A stretch of 64,000 bases of DNA, from assembly GCA_903813345.2 (NCBI GenBank), contig CAIIXF020000006.1, positions 27,845,936 through 27,909,935 of the forward strand, read 5' to 3'. The notes below the pieces were generated by a model, which did no database searches, was not told the origin of the DNA, and was given only the letters and a program-made list of their open reading frames with translations. Positions 1,800 through 53,000 of this stretch are shown here, piece after piece. Positions within the stretch are counted from its first letter, which is position 1. Each line of letters begins with the position of its first letter. A program made the position numbers and the translations under genes. Source of the DNA: Owenia fusiformis (lineage: Eukaryota > Annelida > Polychaeta > Sabellida > Oweniidae).

Positions 1800-2975
1800 G
1801 TATGCTTAAACATCAACGGATGTTAGAATTCGTTAAGCGAATCAAAAATATACAGGTAGTAAATTAAAAATCGCTTGATAAAATGTCATCATCAGAATGG
1901 CCTACCGGCATATTGAAGCATTTATTAGATTAACCTCTAATCTTTAGTACATTGGAATGAAACATCCTCAATTTTAAGTGATGCAAAGATATACAATAAA
2001 TGAAATTTAAATTTCTAACATTATCATGCAACCAAAAAGCAAGATTCAATGGATTTTTCAATCCAGACGGTAATTAAAAACCTCGATCCTTCCATCTTGC
2101 GCAAAAATATGCGATAATTAAAAAGATATGGGTATACTAGTACGTAACTTTCGAGTTTGAAGGACTGGTCATTTTTATATTGTACATTGGGTTATCACGG
2201 GATTGATCATTAAAAGGTAAACAAAAGTATACTTGGGATGACTATTTCAATTTTAGAATGATTTTGGCGCATTCATTCCTTGCATGCCATTTTCTTAAAG
2301 TCCTTAATGTGCATCCTTTTTTCAGGAAAACGAGATATTCTTTACAATACTCAATCATCGTTCTACTCATTATTGGATGGGCATTCTTTTTCAAATTTGC
2401 CCCTTTAAGGAGTTTCAGAAGTTGGGCCCAAATGTTTTACGCGTAAGACCGCCCCTGGACCAGCATATTGATACTAACCGACAACTCATTTCTTTCAACA
2501 GACCAATCAATCATCATTCAAGACCATAACACCAAGGGACATTTCATTTATACTGGAATCATTTACAAGGTATATGTTTAATTTGAAGGAGTCACACTAA
2601 AAATGTTAACCAGTGTATCCTTTGGTCATCTATTCACCTTGATGGATCTAGATGAACCAACCCATGAAATTCACTGTTTTAATGGACTTCGCGTGTCATT
2701 TTTGTGCCCCGGGTAAACCTACACTATTCCAAATTCAACAAACTGTCACAATTTTACTTTTTCATTTCATTATCGGATAATCGGATTAATCGGATGCAAG
2801 CCTACATTAACTCAATACGTTAAAACCGCGCAAATCGATGAACGTAAAACGCCACAGCGTGAGAGTCGAGTAATTTGACTGAACATGCGCATTGTTTTCA
2901 AAAGTAAATTGTCCACTACAAAACCTGTGAAGCAAGTCAATACGAGCTCAGTTTTACATCGGGTCTATTCCAGTG
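1800..2975. other. Gene-free stretch upstream of the PL8 gene
   Basis: No convincing exon or repeat seen. It presumably holds the promoter and 5' UTR of the PL8 gene, but I cannot place a TATA box or start site. An in-frame TAG at 2976 closes the reading frame upstream of the chosen start codon. Confidence 0.4.
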
Positions 2976-3002
2976 TAGATCGGGGGAAAGTTGAAAATAA
3001 AG

Positions 3003-6000
3003 ATGAAGAACATTCGCTTTTTCTTGTCGGTGGTGTTTATGAAGTGTTGTTTGGCGGAGAGGTTTACTTCTGAACTTGACGACAACTTCAAATTGCTTGC
3101 TATGCCAGAGGATGCAGCTGGGGAGCGATATTCAATAAGATTATCGTACCAATATGTTGAGACAGACAAGATGAAAGACGATGGAAGTTTCAGCGATATC
3201 ACTTATACCGACAATAAGAACAAATGGTCAAAACCATTTTTGATCCATGGCGATAGACTGACCAAACTCATTCAATCGTATTTCTTATCTCACAACGGGA
3301 ACAGTTTTTATCAGAATGACAACATTTGGGAATGGATCGTAAAATCGTGGGAATTTCTTGCGTATACCGCACCCGACAACACGGATTGGAACTGGTGGGG
3401 CAATCAAATCGGCCTCCCAAGGTCTCTCTGGTCTGGTCTCTTTCTTTCGAGGGGTAAAATCAGCGACAAGCTGTACGACGATTTGATTAAAAGATACTGG
3501 ACGGACCGTACAGTGTGGGATTACGAACGAAAGAAAGACGGGTTCATATCGGCGTCAAATCTGGCAAATAGAGCTTTCTTAGGGTTGTTCGAGACATATT
3601 TCCAAAGTCAGGACATATTTGAAACCAGGAGAAGTCAGGTCCTTGAGTATCTAGCTCAGGAAATAGTAAATAAAACGACATATCAAGGTAGAATCTTATT
3701 TCTTAATTAACGAACTACTTTTTCGACTATACTATCAATAAAGAGATGTAACTACAAAAGTAAAATAATCGTTAAAGTTTAAGGGAAAGGTTATTTGATT
3801 GCTGAACTTATTCCCTCTTTATCGTGGCTTGCAATTTATATAATGATATTTTGTAAGTTCTGTCAATCTTGTTCCCTTCCTGAGTGTATAACTCTGTCTG
3901 CAAACGAGCCAACAGTCAGAGAGTGTCACGATTCAAGTGTGGCAGATTTTTGGATGTTTAATGTAACGAAACGGAAACTGTTGAAAAAGCTGGACGATCT
4001 ATTTCATTACAATGAATATTGTTAAAAACTCCTTTGAACATTTTAATAAGATTTTATCCAAAGTGTTGGACACAAGATTTCCCATTATAGACATGTTTTA
4101 AATTGCTCGGTTGATTGTCTAAATTATTCAAAAAGTTGATGGTCTAAATTATTCAAAATGTTTTTTCTTGCTGGCCAAATTTTATTCTACAACTTTTTTG
4201 TATTTTCCTCGTCATCAAGGCGCTAAGAACCAACGCTTGAGAACTATAGATGGCATTTTAGACATTTCGGTAGCTTTTGACTTAATGCCAGATAAACTAA
4301 AATTGCACAAACTTCCAAGATGTGGTTCATGTGATTTCATAGCATCTAATAGAAATAGTAAACAGGTAGTTATTCTTATTGATGGACATTTATCAAGCAA
4401 AAACTATATCAATGCCGGACTTCCTTGGGTATCATTCTTAGGACCCCTTTTGTTCTTGTTCGTCTTAGACATTAGTGCCATTGCTTGATTAAATTAGAAG
4501 CAAATACCTTTTGCAGATGAATCCTCTTTTTTGCTTATACAACGTCATTAATACTATTCATTATAATAATGCAATCGGATATGAACGCTTAACAAAACAG
4601 TAGTCAGTAAGATAAGAGGAGGGAAAGCCCCAGAGTTTAAGATGACAGACATAATTAACTCTCTTGCTTACCGGCTTGTTCGTTCGAATTTTCATCGGCT
4701 AGTTACCAAATATTACACTTCGATGGGATGTTTTAATTGACACAGGCATATTCCGTACGGTACACCTTTCCTTATCTTGATGTGAAATGAGAAGCTATGA
4801 TATTGGTTAACACGCCAGAAATGAACATAATATTATTCGAAGCGTATTTCGAAAATTTTGAAACCGCCATTGATGACGTCATTTGTTTGTCGACTTTTGA
4901 CCAATCAGCGACGATGTCATCTCAATACAGATTTACATTATAAGCGTATGTCATCTTTGAACCCTGGTGTTTCTCCCCCTCTGCAGTAAGATGGCACATT
5001 GAATTCATAATCATCCTAGATCCCTAAGTTTTACCACTGGCCCTTTTCTTGGAATAATGTTTCAATGAAATAAACTTGTTACTGTAGGGGAAGGTGTAGG
5101 AGCCGATTACTGTATTCACGCCCACAATATCCACACAGGGTTCTATGAGGGAAAATACACCAACTCACATTTACGTCTGATGATCTACAATGGCGGATAT
5201 GGAGCTGAGTATATCAAAAGATTTGGCTTCATCTGTATAGCACTTCGCGACTCTTCTTACGCGGTAAGTTGTAATATTAGCATACCCTTCCAGTGGCGTA
5301 GCGTGGGTATTTTTGAGTGTACGCCACGAGGGAGCGAAGCGAACGATCTTTGAGGGGGGTTCGGGGGTGGGTCCTCCCCCAAGAGAATTTGAAAATGAGA
5401 TTGCAGTTGAAGTGTTCTGGATCGTTTTAAAATACGAAATTCCGACGAAATGGACTAATGACATTTAAATTATTGGTCATGTTATCCATTTTTAAAGTGT
5501 GAGGCAATTCAATCTAAAAATCAACTTTTCTCTAAATTTTGAGAGTACACCATGGCGTTTTATGCGTATATGACAGTCATCATATTGGTTTTCCAAATTA
5601 TGAGACTGCATTCACCTACAATCTCAAAGTTTCTATACAGTTAATTGATTGCCAACCAAACAGTAGTTGTACACTCAATTATGTCTGTGGAACATCTGTA
5701 CCAAGTTTCAAGTAAATTGGCCCAGAAGTAGTGAAATGGCAACATCTTTGACGTTACTTTTGGATGACCTTGACGTACATTTGACATTTTAGGTGACAGA
5801 GATTATTATGTCTGAGTTCATAAATGTGTTCCTGGAATGTCATCAGTATTTGGTGCGCGGCTGGACATTCGAGCCGACCTCAGTTGGGCGTAATATTGAT
5901 GATAACCAGCGAGTGACGTATTGGGCGGCTTTAGACTCCGTTTACAAGGTATGACATAGGCGTAGTTTGTCTCACATTGTACCCAGTAGTGTCATCTCTT

Positions 6001-8180
6001 TAAATAGCCTTGCTATTGACCATTTCCCACCAAAATAATATCTTCTTTTCTCCCCTTGTATAGTAATGTTCTCATAGGAGGGTTATTCATTCAACTGATG
6101 CCACTGGGTACTCAGCGTCAGGGACGTCTATTTACATTTGGAAAGCTTTCCCTTTCTGATGAATATAACTTCCCCATCGCATCGTCCAGAATTGATAATT
6201 CAGATGCTACTGTTTCAGGTATTAAAATGGTTATTGGAACTCAATTACCGTAAAGAGGAACTTGAAAACGCGGTTACAAGATATCTCAAACGGGGTCCTA
6301 CTAGTGCAGCAAACGCCCTCGTTGGTAACAAAGGATTATTTGCCTCAGATATGATGGTCCACCATAGACAAGGTTATATGGCGACTGTGCGTATGTTTTC
6401 TACTCGTACGGTCAGACCAGAGACGTGGGTGAGCTCAAGAAGAACACAAAATCCAGATGGGTAAGAACTACATATTGATGAACGATAACTTATTCAGCGC
6501 TACCTGTCTCACTGTCACTATGACAAGTCTTTTGACAGATACTGATATTCCAGGTATTACACGGGCGATGGATTTGTGACTCTTCTACAGGATGACCATG
6601 AGTTCGGATCCAGATTCAACGAGGTTTTCCAGTATTATGATTGGGAAAAGATTCCAGGTACTGAATTTTGAATTATTGAGTACCCCCCCCCCCCCAGGGA
6701 GTCCCCCGCTGTCTGAGCAGAATCAGAAACATACCATTAAAAACCTGATTTTCATGTCACCAACATATTGAATCAGGAAAACGTTTCTATAGTCTAGAAT
6801 TTTTTTGGATGGTGTTCGGCGATCGGCGTTCTTACAACTTCCAATAACTTCATAAATACCGTTTAGACTGACGCATTTTGAACTGGCAACATTTTGAACA
6901 TGTTATGATTTCCATAACATTTCTGCCAATATATGTTACAATGGCAACAATTTATAAGTGGACTTGTAACATTTGGTAACCATTTACAATAATTGGACCT
7001 GAACTATCATTTTTGAGACATAAAAATTATTTTTTCCTCAGAGCCCCAACTTTTGATTTTCGAAGTACCACACTATCGTTTTGATTAAAGATAAAAGCTG
7101 TTGTAAGAAAATGCCCTGATATAAATTTGAACGTTTTAGTCAATGTCAAACGTTCTATATCAATAATAAACAATGTAACTGATTAAGTTATTCAATGTAA
7201 TAGAAGTAATGTTTTCGTTTATATATGTTGTAGGTACGACATGCGAATACAGTGGGCAGGTTCCCCGGGAAGGTATGGAGAGAAATGTTGGCAATCCAAA
7301 TGGGTTTCCTCATCATATTAGTAACGCTGTCTTCGTTGGCAGTGCCTCCGATGACATGTACGGTGTTGCTGCAATGGACTACGATCGTCCAACCGTCAAT
7401 ATAACAATGAAGAAGTCTTGGTTTTTCTTTGATGATGAAGTCGTCTGCTTGGGTAGTGATATAGAGCGACGTGAAACTAATGAGGTGATCGAACTACCGA
7501 TTATCACTACGCTGAATCAAGTAGTTCAAGATGGTAACATTGCATATTGTAATTCAGAAACAAGGCAGTATGTAGGCTCAGACACTACAACAAATGTCCC
7601 TAACGCTAAATGGATTTACCACGACAATATTGGATATGTGTTCCCAAATGGTGCAGATGCTAACGTCGATTCCCATGTTAAAACGGCAAATGGCAAAACT
7701 TTGGAAGTCGCTACCATGTGGATGGAACATGGTGTAGAACCGTATGCGTATATCATGTACCCAGGTGTAACCATAGCTCAAACTGAGGAACGCCACGCTA
7801 ATCCACCAGTGGAGATCTTGCAACAGGACTCAAATGCCCATATCGTGTACCAGTCGACACTTGATATTCTCTCAATGATTGTATTCACCGCTCCAATTTC
7901 CTTTGTTTACCCAGATACGGAATTGTCCTTTTCTTTCACAGTTGATCAGCCTTGTATTTTGATGATTCGACACTTTCAGTCAAATAACACTCTTTCAATA
8001 ACTGCTTCGGTTCCTACCCACTACAGGGCTACAGTACAGATCGCACTCGCTGGTATTCATATCAGAGGATTCGATTCATCGTACAGTCCTGATGAACAGG
8101 AATCCTTAGCTCTATTTAATTTCTCAGATGATCCAATGATTGCTGGAAAAAGTCAAACCAAGAATTTTCAAATTGTTTAA
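3003..8180 (+). CDS. Polysaccharide lyase family 8 (chondroitin/hyaluronan lyase-like), 6 exons
   Basis: Predicted secreted lyase that cleaves acidic glycans by beta-elimination. Exons with matching phases: 3003-3687, 5088-5263, 5793-5948, 6219-6460, 6554-6657, 7234-8180, all bounded by GT-AG. They join to about 769 residues, normal for PL8. The start is the first ATG after an in-frame TAG at 2976; residues 1-18 look like a signal peptide. Family marks in order: NWW with IGLPR (about 130-140), the proposed catalytic Asn186 in SASNLANR, ADYCIHAH then YNGGYG (His241, Tyr266), VRGW..VGRNI (Arg320), MMVHHR, YYTGDGF, IPGTT at the exon 5/6 join, and KKSWFFFDDEVVCLG in the C-terminal beta domain. 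Two oddities: about 16 extra residues between the proposed catalytic His and Tyr, and Asp324 where bacterial enzymes have a second Arg. Family assignment is firm; substrate and activity are unknown. The family is mainly bacterial, so old horizontal transfer is possible. Confidence 0.9.
4168..4488 (+). pseudogene. Non-LTR retrotransposon reverse transcriptase fragment
   Basis: A 106-codon open stretch in intron 1 of the PL8 gene reads like the middle of a LINE reverse transcriptase. It has LDISVAFD, then DKLKLHKL..CG, FIASNRNSKQVV, IDGHLSS and INAGLPWVSFLGPLLFLF. These match the usual order of fingers and palm blocks (D-x-S-A-F-D; GxPQGSxLGPLLF), with a Trp where Gln is expected. No YADD box or endonuclease is seen. 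It is a truncated dead copy in sense orientation; the clade cannot be set by eye. Confidence 0.75.
4614..4983. mobile_element. MITE with 9-bp target duplication (copy 1)
   Basis: A 370-bp element in PL8 intron 1. Ends read AAGAGGAGGGAAAGCCCCAG and, in reverse complement from the right, CAGAGGGGGAGAAACACCAG. It is flanked by the direct repeat CAGTAAGAT at 4605-4613 and 4984-4992. The inverted homologous copy is at 20905-21301. A 9-bp duplication fits Mutator-like elements, but no transposase is present, so the superfamily is an inference. Confidence 0.8.
5291..5400. repeat. Possible DNA-transposon end in PL8 intron 2
   Basis: CCAGTGGCGTAGCGTGGG followed by GAGGGAGCGAAGCGAACG and a G/C-run tract resembles termini of dispersed DNA elements found in many animal genomes. 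I did not find a matching opposite terminus, so limits and class are uncertain. Confidence 0.35.
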
Positions 8181-8589: not shown

Positions 8590-9690
8590 TATTGTTAAAC
8601 CTCCACTGTCACAACAAAAGTTCTAAGACATCGTTTTATATTTGACTTTCGCATCTAACTTCTTCGGGTTTTCTACTGTCACAAAACCCAAGTTCTAAGA
8701 CAATAGTTTCACATTTGACTTTCGCATCTACCTTCTTGAAGCCTTCTTCTGTCACACAACCCAAGTTCTAAGACAATTGTTTCAGATTTGACTTTCGCAT
8801 TTACCTTCTTCAAGTCTTCTACTGTCACACAACCCAAGTTCTTAGACAAATGTTTCAGATTTGACTTTCGCATCTAACTTCTTCGGGTTTTCTACTGTCA
8901 CACAACCCAAGTTCTAAGACAATAGTTTCACATCTGACTTTCGCATCTACCTTCTTCAAGCCTTCTTCTGTCACACAACCCAAGTTCTAAGACAATTGCT
9001 TCACATTTGACTTTCGCATCTACCTTCTTCAAGCCTTCTTCTGTCACACAACCCAAGTTCTAAGACAATAGTTTCACATCTGACTTTCGCATCTACCTTC
9101 TTCAAGCCTTCTTCTGTCACACAACCCAAGTTCTAAGACAATAGTTTCACATCTGACTTTCGCATCTACCTTCTTCAAGCCTTCTTCTGTCACACAACCC
9201 AAGTTCTAAGACAATTGCTTCACATTTGACTTTCGCATCTACCTTCTTCAAGCCTTCTACTGTCACACAACCCAAGTTCAAAGACAATAGTTTCACATTT
9301 GATCTTCGCATCTACCTTCTTCAAGCCTTCTTCTGTCACATAACCCAAGTTCTAAGACAATAGTTTCACATTTGACTTTCGCATCTACCTTCTTCAAGCC
9401 TTCTTCTGTCACATAACCCAAGTTCTAAGACAATAGTTTCACATTTGACTTTCGCATCTACCTTCTTCAAGCCTTCTTCTGTCACACAACCCAAGTTCTA
9501 AGACAATTGCTTCACATTTGACTTTCGCATCTACCTTCTTCAAGCCTTCTTCTGTCACACAACCCAAGTTTTAAGACAATATTGCTTCATATTAGACTTT
9601 CGCATCTACCTTCTTCAAGTATTCTACTGTCGCACAACCCTAATAAGACAATTGTTTCATATTAGACTGTCGCATCTAACTTCTCCAAAT
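8590..9690. repeat. 73-bp minisatellite, about 15 copies
   Basis: Tandem units containing GTCACACAACCCAAGTTCTA then AGACAATAGTTTCACATTTG then ACTTTCGCATCTACCTTCTT, with a 73-bp period (GTCAC ends at 9120 and again at 9193). The central units are nearly identical and the outer ones diverged, as expected from unequal exchange. It starts about 210 bp after the PL8 poly(A) signal. No open frame runs through it. Confidence 0.9.
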
Positions 9691-10625
9691 CGACTTTCCA
9701 CAATTCAATTAAAATGTCAAATATTTCTTCTCATCACTCAACTCTTGTCTATAAAATCTTCGTCAACTTAAATGAATGCTTTAAATGAAAATAAATAGGA
9801 TCGTGGGAACTGGGCTCACATGATTTTGAGTTGTTTTGTGCTTTAAGTTTTTATATTGACATTGGATTATTTAGAGAAATGAGCATTTAACAAATGTAAC
9901 AAATTGTCTTTTTATAAATCATATTTGATTGCTTTTATATATTAAATGATTTCCTTTTTAAGTGAGTGAGAAATATTGGTCTGTTGACTTGTTCATGTTA
10001 TTGATGTAGTATAACACAATTATACAGCTATTTACTATGCAGGCATTTTTGACAGTTTATCCAAGACGTTTATTTTATTCATGAATCTAATGTCATGGCG
10101 AACTAGAACGGCAATACCGGTACAATACACACAACTCGCGTTCTAAGACAATAGTTTCATATTTTACTTTCGCTTCTAACTTCTTCACATTTTCTACTGT
10201 CACACAACCCAAGTTTTATGTCAATAGTTTTATATTAGACTGTCGCATCTAACTTCTTCACGTCTTCTACTGCCACACAACCCACGTTGTAAGATAATAG
10301 TTTAATATTTGTCTTTCGCATCCGACTTCTTCAAGAACGGCAATACCGGTACAATACACACAACTCGCGTTCTAAGACAATAGTTTCATATTTAACTTTC
10401 GCTTCTAACTTCTTCACGTTTTCTATTGTCACACAACCCAAGTTCTATGTCAATAGTTTCATATTAGACTGTCGCACCTAACTTCTCCAAGTCGACTTTC
10501 CACAATTAAGATATATCAAATATTCCTTCTCATCACTCAACTCTTGTCTATAAAATCGTCATCAACTTCAATGAATGCTTTAAATTGAAAATAAAGAGGA
10601 TCGTGGGAACTGGGCTCACATGATT
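9683..10625. repeat. Duplicated satellite flank and second short array
   Basis: The array's right flank (9683-9828, from TCGACTTTCCACAATT to GGGAACTGGGCTCACATGAT) occurs again at 10483-10625. Before the second copy lies a short diverged array of the 73-bp unit (about 10136-10480). Inside that, ACGGCAATACCGGTACAATA followed by CACACAACTCGCGTTCTAAG occurs twice (about 10109 and 10334). The whole block looks like a partial segmental duplication of the satellite plus flank. Confidence 0.75.
9836..10095. repeat. Dispersed repeat shared with 19.82-20.21 kb
   Basis: This segment (TTTTTATATTGACATT, then AATGAGCATTTAACAAAT, GAAATATTGGTCTGTT and TTTTGACAGT) matches 19820-20210 in the same orientation and order. 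The second copy has an extra stretch of about 120 bp near 19975-20100. Class unknown. Confidence 0.6.
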
Positions 10626-12095: not shown

Positions 12096-12111
12096 TATTT
12101 TCGGGATCACC

Positions 12112-12240
12112 TCATTATACCGACGCGTATTATACCGAAACCCATTATACCGACGCGCATTATACCGAAACCTATTATACCGACGCGCATTGTGCCGAAA
12201 GCCAACATAGGCCTACCGATGCCCGTTGTACCGAAATCCG
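12112..12240. repeat. ATTATACCGACGCGC / ATTATACCGAAACCC tandem repeat
   Basis: Two 15-bp half units alternate to make a 30-bp period (CATTATACCGACGCG then CATTATACCGAAACC), decaying toward the right into CCGATGCCCGTTGTACCGAA. The reverse complement of the same repeat lies at 16744-16838. The ORFs across it are repeat artefacts. Confidence 0.85.
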
Positions 12241-13082
12241 TGCCAGTGGGACGGCACGTTGCCTTAACCTATCAGTTTTATGTGCACTTCTGCGTGGGAC
12301 TATATCTTTACAGCAGAAATTTCAAGTTTTTGTCAGTGTAGACATAAAAAGTTGCGGTCCTCATACTCGCGCGTTTTTCAATATTTTCATTTGAAACTCG
12401 CAAGAACGGTGCTTTGAATCTAGCTCTATACATAATTTTTTCATTGAACAGACAAGTCTTGAAAATTAAAAATTCATTTTTATTTACTTCCACAATATTT
12501 TAACTTTAAACTTTTTAATATGAGACTAGATGTTAATCTGTTTTTTTTTTATATATTCATATTCAATTAAAAGTTAATCGCGCAAAGACATATTTTCAGA
12601 TAAAGCTTAGGGATTATAAATCTTTGAACATCTTTACATCTCAGTTGCGGCCAGAAATTTTTTAACTGATGCTAGGCGTTTCGAATTGAGGGGTCGTCTC
12701 AACAAACTTAATTCCAGTTAACCATCAATTTCTGTGTTTCATATCTAGGATAAAGTCATAATTCTGTTATTTATGTTTGATTATGGTAAACACTGTACTT
12801 AATAAAATATATTTAACTGTGGTAAATTCTGTATTCAATGAAGTAAACATTTATTTATACTGTATTGTTTCATTGGTAGAAATAAATAATTGTGCTATTA
12901 AATATAAAGTTTCACATTTCTTATTGAACTTGATACGAGGGGTGATCAATAAGTAATGGACGCTTTCTTACACAGATACTTTTTATAGACCAATCCCTTT
13001 GATTTTCCTACCAGTGATACATCATTCAATTATCTATCAATTCTGAAGATTTGAAGACAAGATATATAATACATATTGATAT

Positions 13083-14154: not shown

Positions 14155-15060
14155 GGAATTGTGTACATGTAGCACTTGATGGAAACTATTTAGAGGGCCC
14201 TGTGGAATGAATGTGGCATGAATACCACATAGTGATGATAAAATATTCAAAATTATTATATTATTACTATGGCATAACAAAATGGGGTAATTCATGATCA
14301 TAATGGTTTGTTTTATTCAGCCTGCATTCAACTGCATTGCATGTTAAACAATCTAAAATAGCTTCGAATATGTGACGTAAATGTCGGTCCCGGGGTACCT
14401 GTACCTCCTTCACGGAAATAAAGATATATCAACATGTAATATATATATTGTCTTCAAATCTTCAGAGTTGAAAGATAATTGAATGATGTATCACTGGTAA
14501 GAAAATCGAAGGGATTGGTCTATAAAAAGCATCTGTGTAAAAAAGCGTCCATTACTTATTGATCACCCCTCGTAATTACTATATTTTCGATCTTGTGCTG
14601 ATGGGGCCAAACATTGTTGTCATTGAGAGAGAGCAAGATATGTTGCCATGGAGATAGTAAGAAACGCATTCATTTGCTTTACTTTAAATCTTTACAAATC
14701 CAAGTATTATTTTTATCAATGTGTGCCCCAATGATCCCATTAATTCTGAAGTTATTTCATTTTCTAACCATTTCACAAACATTTTTTCATATAATACTTC
14801 TAAATTGGCATCATTTCCATGTTTAAATTGCTTATACAGTTTTTGGCTACTGATATCATCTCTATCATCAGTTTTCATTCCACAAACGAAATATCAATTA
14901 TTTTGCCCAATATTTCAGTTTCATTATTTTGAAACATTGAATACATGTTTTAATTGGCAGTTTAAAATGGTGCTCATTAACTAAGTCCAATATTCAGCGT
15001 CCTTTTAATATCTATTTAGGGGCAAATCAATACTAGGCTTTGCAAATCATCTGATTCTCA

Positions 15061-16602: not shown

Positions 16603-16743
16603 CAGTGACTAGGCTATATTTTCTAGCTTTGGGTCAAATTATAATCTGCAACTTGACTTATTTGTAGGTTTAAATCGAGAAAGCAAAAAATTCGTAACCA
16701 GGAAGTTCATCCATTTTGTTATAGTTGTGGAACAGTGATTATG

Positions 16744-16838
16744 GCATTCGGTATAACGCCTTTCGGTACAATGCGCGTCGGTATAATGGGTTTCGGTATA
16801 ATGTGCGTCGGTATAATGGGTTTCGGTATAATGCGCGG
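16744..16838. repeat. Inverted copy of the 15/30-bp ATTATACC repeat
   Basis: TCGGTATAATGCGCG and TCGGTATAATGGGTT half units alternate with a 30-bp period, the reverse complement of the array at 12112-12240. The ORFs reading MRYNGFRYN-like peptides on both strands are repeat-encoded. Confidence 0.85.
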
Positions 16839-16986
16839 ACCCCGTATTTTCTACCTCTGTTGGGGTCGTTCCACCATAGGGTAGGTTTTATATGTATATG
16901 TATTTTCACAAGAACTTGCATTTTAAGATATTTTATTTTCGATTTAATGATTCAAATTACACTTTTAATATTCATCACTTCGTAGC

Positions 16987-25759: not shown

Positions 25760-26520
25760 TTGAATGACCATGATCATACATGGAATAAACATGATCACAT
25801 GGAATAAATATGATCATGGATGGAATGACCATAATAACTTGGAATGAACATGATCATACATGGAATAAACACGATCATGGATGGAATGACCATGATCATA
25901 CATAGAATATATATGATCATGGATGGAATGACCATGATTACATGGAATGACCATGATCATATATAGAACGATGATGATCACATGGCATAAACATGATCAT
26001 GCATGGAATAAGCGTATGATCATGCATGGAATGACCATGATCATACATAGAATATATATGATCATGGATGGAATGACCATGATTACATGGAATGACCATG
26101 ATCATACATAGAACGATGATGATCACATGGAATAAACATGATCATGCATGGAATAAGCGTATGATCATGCATGGAATGACCATGATCATACATAGAATAT
26201 ATATGATCATGGATGGAATGACCATGATTACATGGAATGACCATGATCATACATAGAACGATGATGATCACATGGAATAAACTTGATCATGCATGGAATA
26301 AGCGTATGATCATGCATGGAATGACCATGATCATACATAGAATATATATGATCATGGATGGAATGACCATGATTACATGGAATGACCATGATCATACATA
26401 GAACGATGATGATCACATGGAATAAACATGATCATGCATGGAATAAGCGTATGATCATGCATGGAATGACCATAATTACTTGGAATGAACATGATCATTC
26501 ATAGAATGAGCATATTCAAA
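25760..26520. repeat. Higher-order satellite, 145-bp unit on an ATGATCAT core
   Basis: Basic monomers of about 20-25 bp (GGAATGACC or GGAATAAAC plus ATGATCAT) are organised into a nearly identical 145-bp unit repeated from about 25938 to 26450. The first part (25760-25930) is less ordered. Each unit holds several palindromic TGATCA sites. The three overlapping 62-codon ORFs at 145-bp spacing on the minus strand are satellite-encoded and not genes. Confidence 0.9.
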
Positions 26521-47000: not shown

Positions 47001-50000
47001 TGTAGCGAACATTCAACAATAAGGATATAAATATTACCACAAGGAAATCAACAAGTTTAGCAACCTTGGTCCCTTCCCTGTACATGTACTTGGTCCAAGA
47101 AAATCTTCAAATATCAAAAGTTAAATTGCGATTTTGGACATCATCTAATGCAAACTTTGAATAAAACATAGATTTTGCAGGCCCATTGCCAGCTTTTGCC
47201 AAGGGGGTTGACTTCTTAAAAATTTGCAGGGGGTTCACTTTTGACAATTTTGGTAAAAGAAAATGGCCAAAATCACTAAAAAGTGCTCAGAATGGTGAAA
47301 AATTGCATGATTTTGAAAGAATTTTTGGCCAAGGTCATGCCCGTAGCCGGGATTTGCAAAGAGGGGTTCACTTTTTGAAAAATTCCAGGGGGGTCACTTG
47401 TGACAATTTTGGTCTAAAAATGGCCAAAATCACTTAAAAAGTGCTAAGAATGGTGAAAAATTGCATGATTTTGAAAGAATTTTTGGCCAAGGGGGGTTCT
47501 GATTTCTTTTTGGATTTTCTGATTTTTGAGAGACTTTTTTCTTGCATCAAGTCTGGTCAGGGTTTTGCCATATTGGTTTTATTTTACATGTACTTTCAAA
47601 TGCCCGAACAGTACAGTATATTCTAATCCATATGAATCCAAATATGTATGATAATAGGATTTTATCAAATTGACAATGATTTGGAGGAAAGCACTTTAAT
47701 AATGCACTTAGGTAGATTAAATTCATTTGCAATACATGTACTTATCATGTTATAGAGTATCTTGTCTTTATAACATTTGAGCGCAACAGGGATCCTACAG
47801 TCCAAAATAGCTGTACACCGACAAAATGCACTTTCCCATTGTAAACCATTGTAAAATATAGAATTTGTGTTTACATTAACTGGGGAACAGTTCTTCCCCC
47901 TCCCCCACCCTCCTCCCCACCCCTCAGGGAAAGGTGTTCACATCAGCAGGTTTTACTGTTAACATAGAGCTAATGAACCATGGATTTTTGAACAATACCT
48001 GTGGACTGTGAATACCTTGGACTAGGAACACCTTGTGTCATTTTTCTCAATACAAATAAGAACACCTTACAAGGGAATACCTTGGAATAGGAACACCTTG
48101 TGTCATTTTTCTCAATACAAATAAGAACTCCTAACAAGGAAACAGCTTGGAATATGCAAATCCCATGTCCTATTTTGTGCAGCTTTGGCCTTATATTATG
48201 AACATCTCTTAATGTGTTAAGCTTTAGCAAGTTCAGACAGCATTCAATATACAATAGACTAGACAAGTACAACTGAAGTTCAGGGTTAATTGCCTCAATA
48301 ATTATTGATGAATCATATTTGTAGAGCAGCTTTATTAGATAAACTTATTGAATTGCTTTTCTGGAATGCGCTTGGTGTTATGGTAGGCTCATTATATATT
48401 GTACATTTATTGAAATATAAATTTAATGAAATAATTCTATTCAGTTAGGTGAACGTTTGTATTTTCTTTCTTGAATTAAAAAAAATATATAATATGAAAA
48501 TTTAAATAAAAAATTCCGTTTTGATTAATATTATGCCATTTTGAAACATAACTCAAATTATGGTTTGTTTCTTTTAGCTGTTATTTCAATGGAATACACT
48601 CAAAAGTGCAGAATCCCTCTTATTATTATTTGACTACAAAATAACAGTAACTATAGGTGTTGACAATAGAAATCTATCAAAGGAATATTCATCATGATAA
48701 ACAAATGCGATAAATGTTGCAGGAACGGAGATATAATGTGTATTGGAATTGGAATTGTTAAGTAAGGGGATCGGAAAATTTTCAATTAAAGAAAGTTGTA
48801 CTTATTGCGCTGTATTTAAGAAAAACTAAGCAATATTGTTATTCATGCTTTAAGTGTAAGTTTATTGATTTAGAGGAATATGCATTAAGGCTTTTTTATT
48901 GCAATAAGTCAATATGACGAAGTAATTTTAATTGCTTTCGTTTTTTTGTATTTTCAGACGTGGACTAAGTAATACCTAAAAAGACCATGCAATGACTATC
49001 ACAAACAGAATGCTCCAGATGTATGAATTACCATACTAAATGCTCCCGTAGCTACATGAGATTACTATAACAACCATGGCTTGTATATGTGCCCCCTATA
49101 CGTGTAGCCCATCACTAACACCAACAACAGCGAGATTTGCCCGAGACCTCGCATACTACATTGAATCCAATGACTGCCTTAGTATCGAGGGTCTATTCTC
49201 ACAGATTGACGATAAAGGGAAGCTCCGTGATATCATCTCAGCGGAGATTCCCATTGATTATTATGGCAGGGGAACCTGTTTGCATCTTGCTTCATGGTTA
49301 GGATATACAGATATATTACAATTTCTGTTCAAGACCAAAGTTCGTGCAAATTTACCGCAATCTGATGGCCGTATTCCGTTACATGCTGCAGCAGAAGCTG
49401 GGCATACAGACACCGTGAAATTCTTGATTAATCGGTTTAATATTGAGCGTCACATCAAAGTTAGTATACAAGATAGACGTGGCCAAACAGCGCTGCATAA
49501 AGCATGTCACGGTGGACACGCAGACACTGTTAAACTCCTTATATGGTGTGGCGCTCGTGTCAACATTAAAGACATTCATGGGCAGACCCCACTGCATAAA
49601 GCAATCCATGGGGACAAGTTGAGCCTGATAGAATTTTTAGTGGTAAATGGAGCCAAAGTTAATAAACAAGACCGTATAGGCAGGACTGCACTTCATTTAG
49701 CAACCGCAGAAGGCAAAGACAATATCGCTGAGTTTTTAGTTGCCATGGGAGCTGATTTAGATATCACAAATAAGAGCCGTAATACTCCATTAGACCTGTG
49801 TGATCGTGAACTGAGACATAAACTGAAAAGGATTATGCAACGTGCGTCATTTTTAATCGATCAAGCAAGCTCAAAACCTCATAAAAACAAAAAGAAGGCA
49901 ATTTTAGAAGGAATGAAAGAGACACCACTCATATCAAAATTGAGGAACTTAGTCACATCAACCCCAACTAAGGATCTAAGATATCAGCTTATGTCGGGAA

Positions 50001-53000
50001 GTTCAAGGAATTTATCAAAAAGTACACCACATCTTCCCAGCTCAAACACCATCTATAGCTCAGATTCAACACTATGTGACGAAAAACCAAAGGAAGTTTA
50101 CAAACCTCGTTTTCGCAAGAAAAAGGATTACTCTCCACCGACCCAAAAACTATATATACCAAAAAGACAAACAGACACAGAATCGATAATTAGTGAGTCA
50201 GTTTCAACGGCATATGAGTCTGGATATTACGCTGACCCCGAACTTGAATCCACAGACCAGGAAGGAGGGTTTGATGCATCCCCCTATCTCGAGGGGCCCA
50301 AACCTTGGTCCCCCATGCACAGATTCAATACAATCCTCTCCCCAAGGTATGATGATTCGGACAGTGACGACGGTGGATTTAAACGATCATCATCAACCAA
50401 AAGTTCGCCAACTAAAACCAAACGTCCAGAATTCAACAAAAATGGGTATAAACAGATTGAAAACACCAATCATCATTTGTATGGGACATTGCTGTAGTAA
50501 CAAAGTGTTTTCCGATATATACTTTTGTTTTACATTATGTATGTTCATTGGTTAGATAAGTTTAAAGTGTTAAGATTATGTATGGTGAAACTTGTGTGTA
50601 TAGTTAATACTTGTTTCTCAGTAAGTCCTCATTCTGATCTGATGATTTAGTGGTTTGGTCAGGAATCAAGAATGTGCTGGTAGCATAGAAGTCAATGGAG
50701 ATTTATCTATGTCTGCTTGTATGTCCTAAAAGAACTTAACAAAGGTGTCTACAAGACAGAAGTGTTCACCAGACAAGGTGTTCTCCAGACTGTGGGATCA
50801 CCAACCAGCATTGTTTACAAGACACGGTAGTTCACAAGAAAAAATATTCATTAGAGGTATTCACTGAACAAGCTGATCATTAGACAGATATGTTCATCAA
50901 GCATCAGAGCATCAAAAGGAGTGTTTACCAGACAGAGGTGTTCACCTGAAAAATATTCATCGAAGAGGTGTTCATTATAAACTGGTTTTCACTATTTCTG
51001 CATCCTCCCCACACAGGCCTTCAGAACTAGTACCTCATTCCTCTGGAAGTATGAAGAAGGTAGGAATGTAGTGGATGAAGTCTTGAGCCCTACGTTGTTC
51101 GGAGGATGCTGTTTCTGTATCAAACATAATCTAAACTCCATAATCATTATTGATACATCACATCCATTGTGCTGTTAGTACAATGAAAAGCCAATGGTGT
51201 AGTATCAAAGAATGATGCAAAAGCTCATCATGTGAGCTAAAAACCAGTGAAATCCAAATTGCATTTTTAATTGTTTTTTATTTAATCATTTTAGCATAAT
51301 CCAAATTGTGAAACAGTCAGTGCCACTGTCACATTAGCTCAATTTGAAGACAAAAAAGTATGTTAAGGGATGGGGTAATAGAAGTTAGTGATCAAACCCC
51401 ATGATACCATGAGTTTTTATGGTATCATAGCTATGAGGGCTGATTTGGACAAAAGAGGCACACTTAGGTGTGGCCCATTGAAGGAACCCCAGGCCTGCAG
51501 CCAGGGGGTCTGTGGGTTTCATGAAATTTTTCACCATTCTGAATCATTTTCAAGTAAATATGGGTCAAAGTTGTCAAATGCGATCACCCTGGAATTTTTT
51601 CGAAAAGTGCCCCCCCCCCTTGGCAAAAGCAGGTAATGGGCCTAGAGCCCCCTCTTATTAAATGCCGACTGAAGGAACATGTCTACCTCAGAGCAATGAT
51701 GACGTCCTCAACAGTTTGAATCTCTCAGTAACTCTTGAATAGTTTCTCTTGCCTTATTGCATTTTCTCCAACGAGACCGAAAGATGTGTTTAGAATGTTA
51801 GGCCCGAGTAATTTAATTCTATGTTTATATTCATTTTTTATATTTTTAATTACGATAATTTTATTAAGATGAAGAATCATTTGGCGACAATATTGATTAA
51901 AACACAAATACCCTGTCAAAATAAATGAAATATGTTAGAGTCAAGATTTATTTTCAATGTTGCACGGTCCTTATTCATTATTTCCTATGCATTTGCACTG
52001 TGATTTGAAACAAATAACAGAGGATATGATAAACACATAATTTATTTACTCTTAGCCTAATCTTGCATGTGAAACAATCATATTGAAGTATCAAGTCAAT
52101 AAAACATGGAGTATTTTGTATGATATATTTCTATACCTACAGTACTTGTATTTTTGTACTAAATAAGAAAATATTAATTGTTTTCCATATTTTGTCTCAA
52201 CTGAACATATCATTTGTATAAATATCATATCCTATGGTATACTTAGTACTAACATACCTTTGGTGTTTAGTTTTTGAAACAAAACTGAATACTTAGAGGG
52301 GTCAATGTGATTCTGAGGTATATTTTAGATTTCTTCCAGATTTATGTATCATTTTCTAATATTTTGTAAAACTGAAATAAACATAATATATGGTACTGCA
52401 CCAAAAATGTTTTGTAGTTTAGTATATACAGCAAATGAAAGAAGAAATCACCATTTAAAGTGTTTCAAATGTATCATTTGTGTTAAGTCCAACCAGGAAT
52501 GTGTATAGAAGCAATAATAAATTGATCAGACAGTGCTGCCATCTAAAAATAGGCTACAAGAATAATATTACTAAAATGTCACAAGAACCAACAAAAGTGT
52601 CAATCAATTCCTTGTGAACCTGGGTGCATTTCTGGAAAAATTAAAGAATCAAGAATCAAAAATTCAAGAACCCCTATGTCAATTGTTTTCTGATTTTGAC
52701 ATCATTTTTTCTTAATTGCTCCTAACAATATAATGAATTCAAGAGTTTCTAAGTTTGAATTACCCCAGAAGTGCACCACTGGGAGAGATATTAATTTAAA
52801 CCAAGCCAAACTTACCATCTTCAGTCTGTTTGGTATTGCCAAGGGAACCATCTGCAGATAAGTAGAGCAGCATTGCCCCGTTTGGTGGGAGCTCTTTAAA
52901 CCCGGAGGCTAGAAAAGTATTGAGCTGGCTGAACGTGGGTTTGTACAGGAGATACTTGTGGGGGTTGTCTCGTTTGTTCAAGTTATTGTTATCCCCCTAT

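Follow-up and report, generated by a model that had tools for sequence, protein, structure and literature searches.

A gene for a bacterial-type polysaccharide lyase is found on the forward strand of the genome of the annelid Owenia fusiformis, at positions 3003-8180 of a 64,000-nucleotide stretch of contig CAIIXF020000006.1 (C6:27845936-27909935), referred to here as the window. On the evidence assembled below, the gene is likely to be endogenous to the animal and to encode a secreted enzyme of polysaccharide lyase family 8 (PL8) that would cut glycans containing uronic acid; at least 15 intact paralogues, this one included, make up the family. The membership of the gene in PL8, as judged from its domains and catalytic residues, is firm.

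The gene consists of six exons separated by five GT-AG introns in phases 1, 0, 0, 2 and 1, and it encodes 769 residues followed by a single terminal stop (Table 1). The exons were joined by scanning GT and AG sites around those proposed in a preliminary description of this DNA, and three alternative models of 766-768 residues differ where exon 1 meets exon 2 and where exon 2 meets exon 3. The 769-residue model was preferred because the relatives of the gene yield identical junctions; these relatives were themselves modelled with the window protein as query, and the support from shared introns is therefore not wholly independent. The preliminary description had proposed a secreted animal copy of a PL8 lyase with spliceosomal introns, and the proposal is supported in part: the motifs that it quoted are all present, ordered and in frame across six in-phase exons, the five introns of the model are of the spliceosomal type, and the N-terminus, on visual inspection, is signal-peptide-like, residues 5-18 having a mean hydropathy of 1.7. 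The protein stops at the end of the aligned region, with neither a Ser/Thr-rich tail nor a membrane segment.

A comparison of the joined exons with hidden Markov models agreed with the proposed family, since all three Pfam domains were recovered above their cut-offs (Lyase_8, E 2.2e-54; Lyase_8_N, E 1.9e-14; Lyase_8_C, E 3.3e-8), in the PL8 order of an N-terminal helical domain, a super-sandwich domain and a C-terminal beta-sandwich domain. The best match in the PDB is chondroitinase AC (E 1.8e-38, residues 56-717; 1cb8/1hm2, presumably from Pedobacter heparinus), which has the same three-domain architecture and is 27% identical to the window protein, and the catalytic Asn, His and Tyr, the first Arg and the Glu of which align with those of the animal copies. 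The next matches are 7r2x, a mannuronic-acid-specific lyase (E 2.5e-18, the third distinct PDB sequence), and then xanthan lyases; the bacterial hyaluronate and xanthan lyases (1c82, 1f1s, 1j0m and others) match in the super-sandwich domain with scores below that of chondroitinase AC. The NCBIfam chondroitinase-AC model NF043001 was compared with the pieces from exon 1 and exon 6 rather than with the whole protein; the exon 6 piece reached 128 bits, relative to a whole-protein equivalog cut-off of 1000, and the exon 1 piece was unmatched.

A search of the 498-Mb genome (525 contigs) with the Lyase_8 profile gave 29 matches, corresponding to at least 15 genes. C6 carries twelve of these in clusters (24.3, 25.2 and 27.8-28.0 Mb) and another one at 6.7 Mb, and two are on C9. 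The other 14 copies were modelled with a custom spliced protein-to-DNA aligner, using the window protein as query; they are 41-84% identical to the window copy, and none of the 14 contains a stop within the aligned region. Small extra first exons in copies L010, L018 and L021, as well as the start of L009, are possible artefacts of the aligner. Introns at alignment columns 234 and 461, both in phase 1, occur in 15/15 copies, and all five introns recur at the same columns and in the same phases in 12 of the 14 other copies (13 of 15 when the window copy is included), while L011 and L012 share two of the five, lack the remaining three and have one of their own. The ratio of nonsynonymous to synonymous substitution rates (dN/dS) lies between 0.15 and 0.26 in 18 of 20 pairs, which indicates that the copies are under constraint; the window copy compared with L011 and with L012 is saturated at silent sites. 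A pseudogene was ruled out by the open frame together with a dN/dS of about 0.2.

The active site was assessed in an alignment of the 15 animal sequences with 84 others, comprising 79 bacterial loci, four sequences from plasmid records (4 taken of 12 records found) and 1cb8. The bacterial rows were the best 80 of 420 relatives, one of which (L053) was dropped with its chosen frame lacking a blastp match, and they had been picked by patterns requiring NWW or WFFFD-like motifs and are therefore not a neutral sample of PL8. Studies of chondroitinase AC and of hyaluronate lyase have assigned catalytic roles to an Asn, a His, a Tyr and an Arg. Their equivalents, N186, H241, Y266 and R320, are all kept together in 15/15 animal copies and in 72/84 of the other sequences. 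The residue at Y266 is Tyr in every animal copy and in 84/84 others, and E407 is Glu in 15/15 animal copies and Glu or Asp in 84/84 others. Passages on these catalytic roles were sought in PMC4175358 and PMC11596371, and none was found. Two other candidates for the catalytic Asn were rejected: N130 of the NWW motif, given that the alignment with 1cb8 points to N186, 49-58 residues before the His in the five sequences measured, and N189, which had been so paired in a first alignment and is Asn in 0/84 of the others, as opposed to 72/84 for N186. With N186 as the catalytic Asn, N130-W132 is taken by us to be the aromatic patch. Among the bacterial relatives, 12/79 carry Arg in place of the catalytic His, and 12/84 sequences carry Asp in place of the catalytic Asn; these are the same twelve rows, because 72/84 keep both residues, and they constitute, to judge from these substitutions, a group of bacterial PL8 proteins whose active site has changed (L046, L055, L056, L060 and L067 are among its members).

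The animal copies depart from all or most of the aligned sequences at two points of this site. The spacing between the catalytic His and Tyr is 24 residues in 13 animal copies and 23 in the remaining 2, whereas it is 8 or 9 in 84/84 others, so that an insert of about 15 residues, containing an invariant His256 and Arg258, is present in 15/15 animal copies and 0/84 other sequences. Furthermore, the second Arg, four residues past the conserved Arg of the GR motif and at what we take to be R292 of bacterial chondroitinase AC, is Arg in 74/84 others and is replaced by Asp in 13 and by Gly in 2 animal copies. A natural reading is that basic residues of the loop may replace the substrate contact of the missing Arg and thereby alter specificity; the two changes would probably shift the substrate away from that of chondroitinase AC. 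Beyond these two changes, the animal copies differ from chondroitinase AC in their introns and, in some of them, in Ser/Thr-rich tails and membrane-spanning-like ends.

The latter features, as well as the insert beside the active site and the loss of the second Arg in 15/15 copies, are also what would be expected if the copies were now glycan-binding proteins, their lyase activity gone through the loop and the lost Arg, with the stalked copies serving as surface receptors. Pure binders, however, usually lose their catalytic residues, and here the equivalents of Asn, His, Tyr, Arg and Glu are kept in 15/15 copies, the first four also in 72/84 others, which makes such a conversion improbable.

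Each tail was followed past the aligned region as far as the first stop codon of the last exon, and splicing could alter these tails. Copies L012, L014, L015 and L016 stop 0-6 residues beyond the aligned end, L011, L009 and L013 continue for 24, 45 and 76 residues, respectively, and L010 has an open Thr-rich stretch that runs to the end of the locus. In L018, L019, L021 and L022, a hydrophobic end (mean hydropathy 2.6-3.6 over 19 residues) is followed by a basic tail, and these ends apparently resemble that of a single-pass membrane protein. L017 carries an acidic tail of 180 residues, which is basic at its end. The most extended case is L020 (also L103; C6 ~6.686-6.693 Mb, minus strand), in which the last exon is open for 1,953 codons, mucin-like and rich in Ser, Thr and Pro, with 1,150 of the 1,953 codons encoding Ser or Thr; no membrane segment was seen in the 1,953 codons inspected. 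The family appears as a variant form of PL8 with a new active-site loop, expanded in this animal and apparently partly membrane-bound. The preliminary description, sound as to the gene itself, had overlooked the at least 15 copies, the active-site insertion and the apparently membrane-anchored relatives.

With regard to origin, the bacterial relatives are 24-29% identical in their best segments (best 80 of 420). Two quick trees both unite the animal sequences, 15 in all, in one clade (Shimodaira-Hasegawa-like approximate likelihood-ratio test, SH-aLRT, 100) on a stem of 1.35-1.54 changes per column, and in both trees this clade is nested in none of the sampled bacterial groups, a placement that rests on long branches. 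In the first tree, two Clostridia join the animal clade with a support of 96, and the program warns of long branches meeting. In the second tree, for which 69 of 99 rows were kept (the two Clostridia and 28 further rows were left out, five as long branches), actinobacteria and haloarchaea are nearest to the animal clade according to the program's long-branch warning. A branch with a support of 100 in this tree sets the animal clade with the chondroitinase-AC-like bacteria, with an open fork there, and the four actinobacterial and haloarchaeal PL8 sequences that were added (L108-L111), which are without the insert, fall across that branch. Neither the Clostridia nor the actinobacteria and haloarchaea were accepted as the sister group, and no donor is inferred, because long branches meet in both trees. 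A transfer from bacteria is plausible.

Another eukaryotic PL8 is available for comparison, as the mannuronic-acid-specific lyase 7r2x is, we presume, the PL8 of a marine fungus. It has the stretch GNKG[YL][WF]ASD[FM]MVH in common with the window protein, and its alignment spans residues 332-589, or 257-713 when the animal profile is used, starting at the YNGGYG end of the insert; the insert region of 7r2x lies beyond comparison because the matched stretch begins at that end. The marine fungal PL8 is described, in an excerpt of PMC7911691, as eukaryotic, intron-bearing and equipped with a signal peptide, like the window gene. An intron-bearing PL8 gene in a fungus, together with the animal clade that is unnested among the sampled bacterial groups, is consistent with old vertical inheritance, in which an early eukaryote or an ancestor of animals already had PL8 and most animals have since lost it, as opposed to one transfer into animals. 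We regard this as a serious possibility that falls somewhat short of an even chance; it concerns only the origin of the family and is compatible with a secreted, glycan-cutting enzyme.

It is extremely improbable, in contrast, that the gene is bacterial contamination or was recently transferred from a bacterium living with the animal. Such a source would accord with the mainly bacterial occurrence of PL8 reported in the same excerpt (PMC7911691), but it was rejected because introns are common among the copies, because the copies lie on scaffolds of 39-41 Mb, in several regions, and because the identity to bacterial proteins is just 24-28% (79 relatives that matched); the single animal clade with its long stem likewise argues against it. 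The view of the preliminary description that this is an animal gene is borne out by its setting: the scaffold measures 40.8 Mb, and the genome holds the Wnt family (42 matches), the chondroitin-synthase family (13 matches) and glycoside hydrolase family 56 (GH56) hyaluronidases (ten matches, which fall in two neighbouring genes). C1-C12 are each 31.9-62.2 Mb long, and C13 is 0.66 Mb (C14, C15 and C20 were also examined). Nor does the window protein fall inside any bacterial group in either tree, the outcome that had been named as a sign of contamination. Among viral contigs, 75 pattern matches included 0 relatives, and among phages there was one match (25% identical), which came from an unannotated faecal record. 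A search for COX1 returned 0 matches.

In the literature searched, no study of an animal PL8 was recognised from titles and the openings of abstracts. An excerpt of one source contrasts the hydrolases used on such glycans by multicellular eukaryotes with the lyases used by bacteria (PMC11848413). The word 'polysaccharide' is absent from the main text of a compendium on transfers to animals (PMC13342648), and PL8 is unmentioned in the main text of a study of carbohydrate-active enzymes in arthropods (PMC11543626); a baculovirus-type envelope protein is termed hyaluronate-lyase-like in a passage of another source (PMC5380684).

A possible partner enzyme is also encoded in the genome. The glycoside hydrolase family 88 (GH88) model has a single match, at C7:34360786-34361745 (PF07470, E 1.5e-43, positions 25-319 of 352), and the nearest PDB entry is 3k11, a putative glycosyl hydrolase (E 5.5e-28), followed by GH105 proteins. 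The exon is flanked by ttgcag and gtatgt, bounds with which it fits a eukaryotic gene, and one TGA counted in the match falls just past the donor. Enzymes of GH88 and GH105 take off the unsaturated sugar left by lyases; the profile match places the gene in the GH88 family, and its activity is uncertain. Just downstream of this exon, at 2906-3745 of locus L104, lies an open frame of 279 residues built from repeats that are each about 39 residues long.

The proposed function of the family can be outlined as follows. The PL8 enzyme would enter the secretory pathway, and an acidic sugar chain would be held in the cleft of the helical domain, where His241 and Tyr266 would remove the C5 proton of the uronic acid, with Asn186 and Arg320 neutralising the carboxylate. 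The chain would then be cut by beta-elimination, leaving an unsaturated sugar, and the GH88/105-like hydrolase would perhaps finish the unsaturated products. Our guess is that these enzymes digest uronic-acid glycans from the diet or the environment outside the cell, whether glycosaminoglycan-like or algal and microbial, and the tethered copies may work at an epithelial surface. A different assignment, in which the chief target of the lyases is the chondroitin-like or hyaluronan-like matrix of the animal itself during development or remodelling, draws on the chondroitin-synthase family in the genome and on the membrane-spanning-like ends, which fit local action at the cell surface. Enzymes for digestion or for environmental substrates are the more usual ones to undergo large tandem expansion, and GH56 hydrolases are present in the genome as well; such a role for the lyases is considered unlikely.

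Several observations weigh against an active, digestive lyase. No copy has the second Arg of chondroitinase AC, and activity may be altered or lost because the insert sits between two catalytic residues. The identification of H241 as the catalytic His depends on the pairing made by MAFFT, and phmmer, run against 1cb8, sets the gap differently; in addition, a weak phmmer match to hyaluronate lyase (E 0.04) runs through H239, which is invariant, and Y248, with the insert skipped. Y248 was rejected as the catalytic Tyr, being W in 7/15 copies and absent in 2/15, whereas position 266 is Tyr throughout. The GH88/105-like gene is single, located on C7 and unlinked to the lyases, and in NCBIfam it scores best with the model for beta-galactosidase BglB, reaching 75 bits where the cut-off is 420. 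The genome profile search found nothing that matched the heparinase II/III C-terminal family, a result that does not amount to proof of absence. Finally, a lyase would not be the sole route for hyaluronan or chondroitin, because ordinary GH56 hyaluronidases are present. With these points taken into account, the secreted, glycan-cutting PL8 enzyme is still the explanation that we favour for the window gene.

Repeats and an open frame were also noted elsewhere in the window. Upstream of the lyase gene, at 1178-1790, there is a foldback element with several arm pairs that are 76-89% complementary. Just downstream of the gene, a minisatellite occupies 8610-9688 (73-bp unit, 14.8 copies, 91% match) and is accompanied by a second, decayed array of 4.8 copies at 10128-10486. 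Inverted arrays of a 15/30-bp repeat, CATTATACCGACGCG, stand about 4.5 kb apart at 12102-12204 and 16742-16844, with arms up to 95% complementary and with inner inverted arms at 12934-13082 and 14426-14574; these arrays look like the ends of a transposable element. A tandem array of a 145-bp unit lies at 25770-26473 (4.9 copies, 94% match), and an open frame of 471 residues with ankyrin repeats lies at 49079-50491 (Ank, E 1.6e-36). Searches of the window for tRNA genes and for Rfam families returned 0 and 0 matches.

Table 1. Exons, introns and key residues of the PL8 gene in the window (positions counted from the first nucleotide of the window).
Feature	Position	Strand	Content
Exon 1	3003..3687	+	Signal-peptide-like N-terminus MKNIRFFLSVVFMKCCLA; beginning of the N-terminal helical domain of PL8
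Exon 1 residues	3390-3398; 3558-3560	+	Codons of the NWW aromatic patch; codon of the catalytic-Asn equivalent N186
Intron 1	3688..5087	+	Phase 1; position common to 15/15 modelled copies
Exon 2	5088..5263	+	Catalytic-His equivalent H241 (5123-5125), family-specific insert, catalytic-Tyr equivalent Y266 (5198-5200)
Insert-bearing stretch, HxH motif to YNGGYG	5126..5185	+	About 15 extra residues; invariant H256 (5168-5170) and R258 (5174-5176)
Intron 2	5264..5792	+	Phase 0; common to 13/15 modelled copies
Exon 3	5793..5948	+	Conserved Arg equivalent R320 (5889-5891); D324 (5901-5903) at the position of the second Arg of chondroitinase AC
Intron 3	5949..6218	+	Phase 0; common to 13/15 modelled copies
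Exon 4	6219..6460	+	Conserved E407 (6420-6422); the super-sandwich domain match begins in this exon
Intron 4	6461..6553	+	Phase 2; common to 13/15 modelled copies
Exon 5	6554..6657	+	Super-sandwich domain with YYTGDG; PGTT where exon 6 joins
Intron 5	6658..7233	+	Phase 1; position common to 15/15 modelled copies
Exon 6	7234..8180	+	Remaining super-sandwich domain, with KKSWFFFDDE; then the C-terminal beta-sandwich domain; stop codon at 8178-8180

A more far-reaching interpretation, which we put forward tentatively and regard as doubtful, is that the animal has a lyase route of its own, in which PL8 enzymes, at least 15 in number and redesigned at the active site, some secreted and others stalked and membrane-tethered, are served by the GH88/105-like finisher; such a route would be an endogenous counterpart of a bacterial polysaccharide-utilisation system, with a specificity unseen in bacterial PL8. 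Animals are usually credited with a different chemistry, and an intact family of at least 15 bacterial-type lyases in one animal would be a clear exception. The family would further represent a testable source of new lyase specificities, as well as a case of a bacterial-type enzyme that has been expanded, and apparently tethered, in an animal.

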